Shown here: piece by piece, positions 2,727 through 10,951 of the stretch
Layout of the letters: each line of letters starts with the position of its first letter
How positions within the stretch are numbered: the first letter of the stretch is position 1
IMG/VR virus record: IMGVR_UViG_3300033183_000048
Span: 1 to 31,291 of that record
Strand: one strand, 5' to 3'
Origin: a virus
DNA length: 31,291 bases
Notes under the pieces: model-generated
The model's database searches: none
Told to the model about the DNA's origin: nothing
What the model saw: only the letters and a program-made list of their open reading frames with translations
Position numbers and translations under genes: made by a program

Positions 2727-2773
2727 ATTATGGATTGTTCACTGCACAAAAGATATTAGACATTGGTCTTATA
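2727..2773 (-). promoter_or_regulatory. Predicted activator-type promoter with palindromic site (copy A)
   Basis: A palindrome (plus-strand TATTAGAC-ATTG-GTCTTATA, 2754-2773; 7 of 8 arm positions pair) is followed, reading leftward after 21 bases, by CATAAT as a -10 box (2732-2727). There is no good -35 box. The centre lies about 43.5 bp before the predicted start near 2720, where class II activators bind. The site overlaps the stop codon of the CHC2 gene. Two near-identical arrangements exist at 6511-6557 and 10824-10869. Confidence 0.6.
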
Positions 2774-3158
2774 CAGTTTCCAGTTGCTCAATCCGCGCCT
2801 TGGCTAACTTATAACGCTTGAAGTCACTGTGCGTCAGGTATTTACCTGCACCTTTCTCTTGTTCGTACAAGGTAATCACCATTTTATCTTCTAGCTCTGT
2901 TGATCTTAGTTTGAACTTTGGGTCATAAGTCCCTGTGTATTCGCCAGAGAATAGTTCGCTAGTTGGCAGTCCGATTGCTTCAACCACATCTGTCCCACGC
3001 GCACCGCAAGCAAAGCAATGGATCAGAACCTTGCCATCATCTGTTTCCGTGATGGTCATGCTTGGGTTCTTGTCGTTGTGAACTGGACAACAGGCTTGGT
3101 AGCCACGATGTGATTTCTTAACCTTATCCAACTTCCGCAGAATATTTTCTAGACTCAT
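2769..3158 (-). CDS. CHC2-type zinc-finger protein (primase N-terminal domain only)
   Basis: A 129-residue protein with the DnaG-type zinc-binding module: CPVH at 24-27, the following NDKNPS, and CFAC at 48-51, matching the CHC2 pattern seen in bacterial and phage primases. The Toprim catalytic domain is absent, so alone it should not make primers. It may load onto DNA, work with the adjacent helicase, or recruit host primase. AAGGGAAG precedes the ATG, and the start overlaps the helicase end by 35 bases. Confidence 0.85.
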   Translation of the reverse strand: MSLENILRKLDKVKKSHRGYQACCPVHNDKNPSMTITETDDGKVLIHCFACGARGTDVVEAIGLPTSELFSGEYTGTYDPKFKLRSTELEDKMVITLYEQEKGAGKYLTHSDFKRYKLAKARIEQLETV

Positions 3159-5466: not shown

Positions 5467-5508
5467 AATACTCACCCTAACCCGCTTGAGCAAGTTAAAG
5501 TGAGTACC
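5467..5508 (-). promoter_or_regulatory. 19-bp RNA hairpin with UCAA loop
   Basis: In the minus-strand RNA, positions 5508 to 5490 pair without a break with 5467 to 5485 around the loop 5489-5486 (TCAA). Six of the 19 pairs are G-U. On the plus strand those six would be A-C mismatches, so the structure favours minus-strand RNA, the direction in which the genome is transcribed. It ends about 50 bases before the start of the 64-residue gene. It could be an RNase III processing site, an mRNA stabiliser or part of a larger RNA. Confidence 0.6.
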
Positions 5509-5767
5509 CTTGTGCCAATTCGGACTAGCCTGTCGTCACACTTGGGATGCAATCACCTGATGAGGCTTGCACTGGATTGGTTACGATTCATCAACCGCCT
5601 CTGCGCGTCCAATCCCGCGATCTATGTTCCACCCAAGGTTTCCCAATATAGGTTCAGAAGATCGCCACTCATAACGCTAACGACAAGATTCACAAAGACC
5701 CAACTTTTTTAACGTGCTGTGAGACTGATACATGACACCTGCACGACTTGCCGTGTTCAGGACAGAG

Positions 5768-5911
5768 ATGACTAAAGGAGAAAAAGTGGTCACAAAGCTA
5801 ACTGATTGTTATACTTTGTACCGTGTTCCGGAGTGCGGTCACGGGTTTTTCTCGTTTCTTCAGTCCGGTCTGCTAGGAAGCTACCAACTTCCGTCCGGAA
5901 CATTTTTTTAA
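5768..5911 (+). CDS. Possible plus-strand 47-residue ORF
   Basis: ATG at 5768 is preceded by AGGA with a 5-base gap. The frame runs 47 codons (MTKGEKVVTKLTDCYTLY, then VPECGHGFF) and stops at 5911 in a run of seven T that follows GGAAG/CTTCC and TTCC/GGAA inverted repeats, so the end could also be a plus-strand terminator. It would be the only plus-strand gene here. No family is recognised and no promoter is evident, so it may be chance. Confidence 0.25.
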   Translation: MTKGEKVVTKLTDCYTLYRVPECGHGFFSFLQSGLLGSYQLPSGTFF

Positions 5912-5912
5912 T

Positions 5913-6293: not shown

Positions 6294-6313
6294 GAAGCCG
6301 CTTATGCGGCCTC
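6294..6313 (-). other. Hairpin around the stop codon of the 59-residue gene
   Basis: Minus-strand GAGGCCGC-ATAA-GCGGCTTC pairs over 8 bp (one G-U) with the TAA stop in the loop, the same core as the terminator at 2481-2506. No T run follows; a GGAG ribosome site for the next gene does. It is more likely an mRNA stabiliser or translation-spacing element than a terminator. Confidence 0.55.
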
Positions 6314-6481
6314 ATCCTGTTTAGCTTCATTTATCAGGTCAATAGCTTGCCAAATCAAACGATAAACATCATCTAATTTCTTAGAATCATTTGAACCTGC
6401 GCAAGCTAAATAACTAGCCGCATGGTGCAATGTTTGCTTTGCGTGATCCATTTTTGTTTCAACAATTTGAGTGTTTTGCAT
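6302..6481 (-). CDS. Hypothetical helical protein, 59 residues
   Basis: Starts MQNTQIVETKMDHAK and ends KQDEAA. The sequence looks all-helical, with hydrophobic residues at three- to four-residue spacing (LHHAASYLACAG, then VYRLIWQAIDLINEA). AGGAG precedes the ATG by 8 bases. It is the first gene after the palindrome-marked promoter at 6511-6557. Function unknown. Confidence 0.75.
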   Translation of the reverse strand: MQNTQIVETKMDHAKQTLHHAASYLACAGSNDSKKLDDVYRLIWQAIDLINEAKQDEAA

Positions 6482-6510: not shown

Positions 6511-6557
6511 ATACTAATGCGTTATTTTACTCTGATGTATTAGACCTTAGTCTAAGT
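6511..6557 (-). promoter_or_regulatory. Predicted activator-type promoter with palindromic site (copy B)
   Basis: A perfect 6-bp inverted repeat TTAGAC-CTTA-GTCTAA (6540-6555) is flanked on the left by TA as in the other copies. Reading leftward, 21 bases after the element there is TAGTAT (6516-6511) as a possible -10 box; the predicted start is near 6504 and the palindrome centre lies about -43.5. It overlaps the 3' end of the NinG gene and precedes the 59-residue gene by 57 to 59 bases. Confidence 0.6.
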
Positions 6558-7114
6558 TTCTTTGTGAATATGCGTTTGATGCGCTTGAGGTCATCAATGC
6601 TGTAATTCTTTGGCGTGTTGTCTGTCTCGATGCGATCTAAGAACTCTTGTCCGTAACGCCAGACGATGCCGACTCTGAACTTATCGATGTTGCCTGACAG
6701 ATAACGGTTACACTTTTTGCATTGACCGTGGATGTTATCCAGACGGAATCTCAGATGTGGCGCACTGCCTCGTGATCTGTAATGCCCTGCGTCATAGCCA
6801 CCACCTAACGATTCAGACTTCAGTGATGTGTTGCATGAAATACAATTCTTGTTTCGATCACGCCATCGAACGTATGCGTTGACTGCTGCTTGCGCTTCTT
6901 TCGTCCACTGGCCTTTTGTCTTCAGCTTTTCTTTCTTTACGCGATCTTCTTGGCGTTTCTGCTTGCGTGTTTTATCAGCCAGTTTATCTGCGTTCTTCTC
7001 TGTGTATTCCTTGAGACACTCATAGCCACAGAATGCCTTAAAGCGAGATACGAACACCTCGCTTGCAGGGACTTTCTTGCGACAGTTAGAGCAGCGTCTG
7101 GTTACGGATTTCAT
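6527..7114 (-). CDS. ninG: NinG/Rap-like recombination protein
   Basis: A 195-residue protein starting MKSVTRRCSNC. An N-terminal zinc finger (C8, C11, C29, C33), a Lys/Arg-rich helix (about 40-75) and a C-terminal HNH-like zinc nuclease core (C91, C94, GH at 110-111, the later H129, C132, C135) match lambda NinG (Rap), a structure-specific Holliday-junction or D-loop endonuclease. An upstream TTG opens the frame by 10 codons, but ATG at 7114 has AGGAA in front. It overlaps the 63-residue gene by 29 bases. With NinB, ERF and the exonuclease it forms a phage recombination set. Confidence 0.85.
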   Translation of the reverse strand: MKSVTRRCSNCRKKVPASEVFVSRFKAFCGYECLKEYTEKNADKLADKTRKQKRQEDRVKKEKLKTKGQWTKEAQAAVNAYVRWRDRNKNCISCNTSLKSESLGGGYDAGHYRSRGSAPHLRFRLDNIHGQCKKCNRYLSGNIDKFRVGIVWRYGQEFLDRIETDNTPKNYSIDDLKRIKRIFTKKLRLRSNTSE

Positions 7115-7277
7115 CTTTGTGAATATTCCTGATCTTTTGGTCAATCAGTGTCTTTGCGAAAATCAGAATGTCAATTTCTCTTGGTTGCAGTACAGTGCCA
7201 TACTTAATATGCACATCACCATGCCTACCACCTGCAAAACCCATTTCTATGGTCACGGTTGCTTCACGTTTAGGCAT
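7086..7277 (-). CDS. Hypothetical 63-residue protein
   Basis: Starts MPKREATVTIEMGFAGGRHG. Beta-rich at first, then a helix (EIDILIFAKTLIDQKIRNI). GGAG lies 8 bases before the ATG. It sits between ninB and ninG with overlaps on both sides, so it is translated with them, but no family is recognised. Confidence 0.7.
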   Translation of the reverse strand: MPKREATVTIEMGFAGGRHGDVHIKYGTVLQPREIDILIFAKTLIDQKIRNIHKDEIRNQTLL

Positions 7278-7886: not shown

Positions 7887-8030
7887 TTACTCGCTATCTC
7901 TGAGTTTTAATTCAAGCAGCATCGCCTTGTCTTCTAACTGACGCGCTTTCATCATGTGTCCAAGCGCATAACGTCTTAACATTTTTATGTACGTTTTTTT
8001 TAGTTTTCTTAACACTTTTCTGCGCTTCAT
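7887..8030 (-). CDS. Hypothetical very basic peptide, 47 residues
   Basis: Starts MKRRKVLRKLKKTYIK and ends LELKLRDSE. It is helical, strongly basic in its first half and more balanced later. The ATG at 8030 overlaps the stop of the HTH gene as ATGA, which supports this start over longer ones; no separate ribosome site is seen. It may bind nucleic acid; function unknown. Confidence 0.55.
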   Translation of the reverse strand: MKRRKVLRKLKKTYIKMLRRYALGHMMKARQLEDKAMLLELKLRDSE

Positions 8031-8227
8031 ACGATGTGCGTCCATGTTTTCATGTTCACAATCTTGCAAACATGAGACTTGGTGATCTCAAACTTTTCTG
8101 CGATCTCTTGGAGTTGTAGCCCTTCATCACGCAACTGGCGAATCAGAGCTACATCTTCAGGATCAATCTTTCTTTTCCAATGGTGTCTCCAATGGTTGTT
8201 TGGCTTTTCCACTGAATATCCTTTCAT
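8027..8227 (-). CDS. Small HTH DNA-binding protein
   Basis: A 66-residue protein with a clear helix-turn-helix in its second half: IRQLRDEGLQLQEIAEKF, then EITKSHVCKIV, and a Trp near the end. The pattern is that of the small HTH found alone or at the end of phage HNH endonucleases. The ATG at 8227 gives a 65-base overlap with the previous gene; a GTG at 8212 with AAAGGA before it is an equally good start. It could be an early regulator or the remnant of a homing nuclease. Confidence 0.7.
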   Translation of the reverse strand: MKGYSVEKPNNHWRHHWKRKIDPEDVALIRQLRDEGLQLQEIAEKFEITKSHVCKIVNMKTWTHIV

Positions 8228-8454: not shown

Positions 8455-8632
8455 CGTCATACTCCATTTCTTTAGCGTCATCGATAATCTGGACTTTAAC
8501 CAGTTCTAAGACACCTAGCGTTTCAGGTACAGACAGGTTGCGTTCAGCACCCATCTCGTTAATGCAATCGAGAATATCCAATGCAAGTTCCTGCAAGTGG
8601 TTCTGCTTGAATGAGCCGTGAACTACTGTCAT
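8447..8632 (-). CDS. Hypothetical helical acidic protein, 61 residues
   Basis: Starts MTVVHGSFKQNHLQELALDI and ends KEMEYDDE. It appears all-helical with a hydrophobic core (VLELVKVQIIDDA). AGGAAG lies 8 bases before the ATG, and the start overlaps the previous stop as ATGA. No family is recognised. Confidence 0.7.
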   Translation of the reverse strand: MTVVHGSFKQNHLQELALDILDCINEMGAERNLSVPETLGVLELVKVQIIDDAKEMEYDDE

Positions 8633-8817
8633 TTCGCGTACTTCCTGAGTTTGTTTCGCTTAATGTACTCAATCGTTGAAGTCGTGACACCAAACTTATC
8701 TGCAAGAGATGGGTTCGATACCTTACGCCATTCAGTCTTGAGCCGTTCCTGTTCAACCAACAATTCGCAGATATGATCTACATCTTCATCGGTTAGTTTG
8801 TATGAAGTCTTATCCAT
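8629..8817 (-). CDS. Small HTH DNA-binding protein
   Basis: A 62-residue protein starting MDKTSYKLTDEDVDHI. The second half holds a helix-turn-helix (NPSLADKFGVTTSTIEYIKR) and a basic C-terminus (NKLRKYAK). GAGG lies 7 bases before the ATG at 8817; an earlier TTG is less likely. It is the first gene after the hairpins at 8845-8888 and is a candidate early regulator, possibly of the palindromes described here, though nothing shows which. Confidence 0.75.
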   Translation of the reverse strand: MDKTSYKLTDEDVDHICELLVEQERLKTEWRKVSNPSLADKFGVTTSTIEYIKRNKLRKYAK

Positions 8818-10584: not shown

Positions 10585-10608
10585 AAGAAAACCGCTGTTA
10601 AGCGGCTT
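10585..10608 (-). terminator. Intrinsic terminator with the stop codon in its loop
   Basis: Minus-strand AAGCCGCT-TAAC-AGCGGTTT pairs over 8 bp (one G-U) and is followed by further T (CTTTT). The loop contains the TAA stop of the 61-residue gene, the same design as at 2481-2506. Confidence 0.75.
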
Positions 10609-10783
10609 TCAGTGTTTGCAGATGCGCTTTGGCCTCTGCTTCTGTGGCAAACTCAGCTACCACAGTTGCTCGCCAAGGCGATGGTTGCTTGGCAACTCCG
10701 CGAACCTGCCAAGCGTAGATTGAGCCATCAAACTGCGAACGCAGTCCTTTGACTTCAAAGTGAGAAAAAGATTGGTTAGACAT
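10598..10783 (-). CDS. Hypothetical 61-residue protein
   Basis: Starts MSNQSFSHFEVKGLRSQFDG and ends LQTLKAA. A beta-rich N-terminal half (IYAWQVRGV, RATVVAEF) precedes an Ala-rich helix. GGAGG lies 7 bases before ATG 10783; a longer frame from 10825 lacks this. It has its own promoter (10824-10869) and terminator, so it is a one-gene unit of unknown function. Confidence 0.75.
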   Translation of the reverse strand: MSNQSFSHFEVKGLRSQFDGSIYAWQVRGVAKQPSPWRATVVAEFATEAEAKAHLQTLKAA

Positions 10784-10823: not shown

Positions 10824-10869
10824 ATTTTACGGATCGTGAAAATTATCTGTATTAGACATTAGTCTAATA
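10824..10869 (-). promoter_or_regulatory. Predicted activator-type promoter with perfect palindrome (copy C)
   Basis: TATTAGACATTAGTCTAATA (10850-10869) has perfect 8-bp arms around ATTA. Reading leftward, TAAAAT (10829-10824) follows after 20 bases as a -10 box; the predicted start is near 10817 and the palindrome centre at about -42.5. The right arm touches the T run of the terminator at 10869-10893, so termination and initiation are packed together. Confidence 0.65.
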
Positions 10870-10893
10870 AAAAAAGGCCACATCCGTGTGGCC
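10869..10893 (-). terminator. Strong intrinsic terminator of the late operon
   Basis: Minus-strand GGCCACA-CGGA-TGTGGCC is a perfect 7-bp stem followed by seven T. It lies 59 bases after the stop of the phosphoesterase gene and separates late genes from the early region. Confidence 0.9.
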
Positions 10894-10951
10894 TAATGGG
10901 GTAGTAGTCGGAAGTGAGATAAGGGTATCTCGAAATCTTTATACCAAAATG

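Follow-up and report, generated by a model that had tools for sequence, protein, structure and literature searches.

The viral DNA analysed here, referred to below as the window, is an entire 31.3-kb IMG/VR record (31,291 nucleotides) from an uncultivated marine phage, with the gene content of a lambda-like tailed phage (NinG, NinB-like, Erf, exonuclease, portal, TerL and tape measure). It carries three copies—A, B and C—of a site that, judged from the sequence, is very probably a CrbR/ErdR box (ACTU motif) placed in phage promoters, with the CrbR of the host or a close paralogue as the predicted activator. The identity of the sites, their register, their conservation and the exchange of the genes behind them were all established by computation. 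In the acetate system CrbS/R, the response regulator is CrbR/ErdR, a protein of the LuxR type that activates acs in Pseudomonas; in the acs promoter of P. fluorescens, the ACTU motif spans −52 to −36 as an imperfect inverted repeat, which is required for the activation by CrbR and which activates also in E. coli once CrbR has been supplied (PMC5715377).

The original prediction had described a palindrome, TTAGAC-N4-GTCTWA, at positions 2756–2771, 6540–6555 and 10852–10867, and a rescan of the window recovered all three copies. With up to two mismatches allowed on both strands, the window contains 14 matches to the palindrome, compared with a mean of 3.7 in shuffled windows, none of which reached 14. 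An inverted repeat is indeed present at the three sites, but the conserved unit is longer, comprising 18 bp (TWAGACYAAKGTCTAATA, read on the coding, i.e. minus, strand) with TA added at the downstream end, and its centre is an asymmetric YAAK, hence the site is more than a plain palindrome. In this register, the ACTU/CrbR-type boxes occupy positions 2754–2771 (site A, TAAGACCAATGTCTAATA), 6538–6555 (site B, TTAGACTAAGGTCTAATA, in the 3′ end of ninG) and 10850–10867 (site C, TTAGACTAATGTCTAATA, directly after a terminator), all of them on the minus strand, as are the genes near them. We know of no site for FNR/CRP, LexA, TetR or a restriction-modification controller protein that would match, and a search of the literature for the motif halves as text returned only unrelated papers.

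Concerning the surroundings of the sites, a −10-like box follows each of them on the minus strand—CATAAT at 2727–2732, 21 nt past site A, TAGTAT at 6511–6516, 21 nt past site B, and TAAAAT at 10824–10829, 20 nt past site C—and no −35 box is seen at any of the three promoters. The spacing of 20 or 21 bases given originally holds when counted from the 18-bp unit, but becomes 22–23 from the 16-bp palindrome. Shine-Dalgarno sequences and start codons come next (starts at 2688, 6481 and 10783 for A, B and C, respectively), and the centre of each site lies about −43 from the predicted transcription start, within the range of about −52 to −36 characteristic of the ACTU motif. Site A also terminates the 129-aa primase-like gene (2769–3158, minus strand), its TAA being the stop codon, which agrees with the overlap described earlier for the copy preceding the 64-residue gene; site B encodes the C-terminal LRLRSN of the NinG-type protein (6527–7144, minus strand), and site C is preceded by a terminator-like hairpin with a T run (10875–10894, minus strand), closing the upstream transcription unit. 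The genes behind the promoters, also on the minus strand, code for 64 aa (A, 2494–2688), 59 aa (B, 6302–6481) and 61 aa (C, 10598–10783); the last one starts at 10783, preceded by a Shine-Dalgarno GGAGGT, and not at 10825. None of these small genes gave a database match, the 64-aa gene being without any PHROG or Pfam hit.

The asymmetry of the phage sites is common to published ACTU sites, such as TACGACTAAAGTCTAAA and TACTACCAAAGTCTAAT (PMC5715377). A scoring matrix was built solely from bacterial acs promoters, with 47 out of 63 upstream regions selected; it was based on an order-level sample, used in place of a first, class-wide one that had given a diluted matrix because most of the genomes sampled there showed no site. 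With the acs matrix, no hit in the window exceeds the three sites, which score 24.0 (B), 22.8 (C) and 22.2 bits (A) and all lie on the coding strand; in 60 random replicas, the score never rose above 17.0 bits. Next in the window come the same three sites read backwards, followed by one hit of 12.0 bits. A matrix restricted to 20 acs sites, each differing at at least two positions, gave 21.9–22.7 for the three sites against a null maximum of 17.7. With a matrix confined to the six P. fluorescens sites from the literature, sites A–C again occupied ranks 1–3 (19.0, 17.7 and 15.7), with a 95% null value of 16.5 and a null maximum of 18.9; it should be noted that the 15.7 of site C falls inside the range of random maxima, so the literature-only matrix is weaker evidence for this site. 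By both the acs-derived and the published-site matrices, A, B and C possess the 17-bp imperfect inverted repeat of the ACTU motif. Upstream of acs, several genomes of the order sampled have a site just one base off in 18 (CTAGACCAAGGTCTAATA), the Thalassotalea region carries TTAGACTTAGGTCTAATT, further genomes of the same order have CTAGACCAAGGTCTAAT, and Alteromonas exhibits several ACTU-like repeats.

The distance to the −10 box points in the same direction. When the −10 offset profiles were computed separately for 35 acs-locus sites and 42 phage sites, the mean −10 score peaked in both at 22 nt after the final AAT of the box. The shared offset suggests that the phage box sits where CrbR activates acs, i.e. 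adjoining the −35 region, which would also explain the missing −35 box.

For the conservation analysis, 19 relatives were collected by similarity to the 394-aa protein alone. The closer clade keeps the sites at the same places as in the window; loss of the motif from close relatives, which the original prediction had named as evidence against itself, is therefore not what is seen. The number of sites per genome is three in the window and two in several relatives. Four relatives (L005, L007, L010 and L013) have a weaker form of the site, TTAGACTAAAGTATTA, at position C, while L004 and L008 have the variant TTAGACTAAAGTCGTAT, still scoring 20.4 bits with the acs matrix. No site was detected in three distant, ninG-bearing relatives (L014, L015 and L018)—the ninG of L015 ending without the LRLRSN tail—nor in the cultured distant relatives Vibrio phage 1.233.A and Pseudoalteromonas phage HS1. 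A close isolate relative was not found, TerL being about 50–56% identical to its counterparts from Pelagibacter and Vibrio phages.

It had also been expected that related phages would carry the motif before the same genes; what is found instead is that the site is kept while the gene behind it is swapped. The 90-bp promoter with site A is nearly identical in L027 from the site to the start codon, the genes beyond are unrelated, and the breakpoint of the exchange is located exactly at the start codon. The slot holds a different gene in L060 as well, where, in addition, the cassette of site C—promoter together with gene—is located behind site B; the content of slot B also varies among the relatives. 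As the sites persist while the genes behind them differ, they behave as fixed promoters with exchangeable genes.

Outside this family, TWAGACYAAKGTCTAATA was matched exactly in 75 stretches of the viral collection, compared with 27 for the reversed pattern. Non-coding positions account for 48 of 63 distinct viral sites and for 3 of 21 control sites; both a −10 box and a Shine-Dalgarno/start codon follow 24 of the 63 viral sites and none of the 21 controls. Since the viral sites were picked by the exact pattern, their within-site invariance is in part due to selection; position and spacing were not selected for. The site-bearing contigs, many of which are fragments, belong to several unrelated groups, including T4-like marine phages; this is the only statement made on lineages, since counting them by shared proteins merged the groups through common proteins. 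Short palindromes, as well as single sites with two mismatches, do arise by chance; nevertheless, the shuffled windows and random replicas, the conservation in relatives and the reversed-pattern control all contradict a chance repeat without function, the probability of which appears negligible. Some other phages show a −10 offset unlike that of the window and also a −35 box. In five records (L046, L050, L055, L058 and L066), the promoter immediately following the site has a −35 box (TTGACC), which makes the activator geometry there different, and in eight others (L033, L042, L051, L064, L073, L076, L078 and L089) a second inverted repeat, e.g. TGTTGCATTTTTGCAACA, precedes the site and is perhaps a terminator or another operator.

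Among the bacteria, a scan of the genome collection yielded 32 stretches with the motif. In Acinetobacter (L106, L099, L100, L105, L107, L116–L118, L120 and L123), it is found on the opposite strand near a gene for a dctA-type symporter, about 120 bp upstream as checked in L099 and L106, the flanks of the others being alike; this locus is possibly a further CrbR target. One copy precedes a porin gene in genomes of the OM252 clade, and another is located upstream of a gene in SAR86. In a sequence from Alteromonadaceae (L121), two tandem copies of the palindrome are present upstream of a porin gene (3026–3080). The dctA-type symporter and the porins as targets pointed to a regulator of carbon-source use.

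The original prediction had seen in the three promoters a phage regulon with its own activator. The regulon has stood up well—three promoters without a −35 box, whose site is spaced as for an activator and is conserved in relatives—but the attribution to an activator of the phage's own is probably wrong, since the site, its asymmetry and the −10 spacing match the box of the host CrbR/ErdR in acs promoters. The two small helix-turn-helix (HTH) proteins proposed for this role (8027–8227 and 8629–8817) occur, among the records tested, only in the window family, where both genes co-occur with the sites; neither was detected in the other site-bearing viral groups tested, several of which are fragments. 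Nor was a phage-encoded LuxR-type activator seen, as none of 37 site-bearing viral records, which may be incomplete, contained a GerE domain over the cut-off. That one of the two HTH proteins is nevertheless the activator, having reached a CrbR-like specificity by convergence, seems quite unlikely: such convergence would have to reproduce the site, the asymmetry and the −10 spacing of the acs promoters, the 8027 protein is not of the GerE type (it gives a weak HTH_7 match), and changes occur in its recognition helix, whereas site B is invariant. Because both genes are present in the site-bearing clade, not being found in the site-lacking L014, L015 and L018, and because the 8629 protein has kept the sequence of its recognition-helix region, a phage regulator retains a low weight.

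The activator might also be a host LuxR-type response regulator other than CrbR, and such regulators may share the box specificity. The occurrence of the motif before the dctA-type, porin and SAR86 genes implies that more regulators or more targets exist, and the acs sites of OM252 (CGAGACGATTGTCGTAT) are rather different; however, the phage sites can be predicted from nothing more than the published ACTU sites and the acs promoters of alteromonads, and another regulator is unlikely. It is very unlikely that the sites act as operators in repression, or as decoys titrating the host CrbR: a regulator could be titrated by three high-scoring copies in one phage genome, but downstream of every window copy there are a −10 box at activator spacing and a Shine-Dalgarno sequence with a start codon, and no −35 box is present.

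The activator is thus taken to be, most likely, the CrbR of the host, as suggested by the identity of the sites together with their geometry. In the mechanism proposed, the host CrbR, which is paired with the acetate-linked sensor kinase CrbS, or else a close paralogue of identical specificity, would bind the 17–18-bp site, whose centre precedes the start by about 43 bp. Like a class II activator adjoining the −35 region, it would bring the host sigma-70 RNA polymerase to promoters that have a −10 box but lack a −35 box. The small, often exchanged phage genes would thereby become tied to the carbon and acetate status of the host, with the sites staying in place as docking points while the gene cassettes behind them change. 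It is inferred that the host has CrbR, that CrbR binds the sites, that transcription starts at the predicted positions (near 2720, 6504 and 10817) and that the genes serve accessory or host-takeover functions; given the CrbR-type boxes in its promoters, the phage probably borrows a sensor system of the host. Whether unrelated phage groups of gammaproteobacteria have independently acquired the box of the acetate regulator as a docking promoter for exchangeable small genes, reading host acetate and carbon via CrbS/R, is an evenly balanced question.

Phage-encoded activators of middle or late promoters, e.g. Mu C and P2 Ogr, likewise act on class-II-like promoters that lack a −35 box and form a phage regulon; here, by contrast, no matching phage regulator was found and the box belongs to a regulator of the host. 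The known ACTU regulon of CrbS-CrbR (MxtR-ErdR) shares with the phage the 17-bp asymmetric inverted repeat, the register of about −52 to −36 and the −10 distance, but its sites precede acs, actP and related genes, whereas those of the phage, with no −35 box seen, precede small uncharacterised genes (PMC5715377, PMC8402216). The nearest precedent is represented by the Pho boxes of cyanophages, the use of which by the host PhoB has been tested (PMC10976474). In both cases, a set of phage genes is placed under a host two-component response regulator, and several phage promoters, three of them in the window, carry the host regulator's box; the regulator is, however, of the OmpR type in cyanophages and of the LuxR type here, with acetate/carbon as the signal, the hosts are presumed to be heterotrophic bacteria, and cassettes are swapped behind a fixed promoter site. 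No link between CrbR and phage promoters was found in the titles or abstracts of seven open-licence papers retrieved for CrbR together with phage.

Among the host two-component regulators used by phages, PhoB in cyanophages is the best-documented example; the present results predict, from sequence, a different regulator with a named pathway, acetate use, for uncultivated viral contigs of several groups. Variable small phage genes might be found by way of the slots behind the box, and a link between the carbon state of marine bacteria and infection is conceivable.

A few other features of the window may be mentioned. A stretch of about 400 bp (5500–5912), between the 90-aa and 48-aa genes, is without a convincing coding-strand gene; it gave no Rfam match, and its RNA fold is not significant (z = −1.45). 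A DNA search with part of the window against 395 genomes returned only short matches of 30–47 bp, which are uninformative as to the host; the segment 14832–14878 matches several bacterial genomes at once (35–47 bp, 84–94% identity), the 182-aa open reading frame around it having no Pfam match. Finally, the 357-aa protein encoded at 91–1164 combines an ABC-type ATPase part with a GNAT acetyltransferase part and matches phrog_11143, a family of unknown function, over almost its full length.
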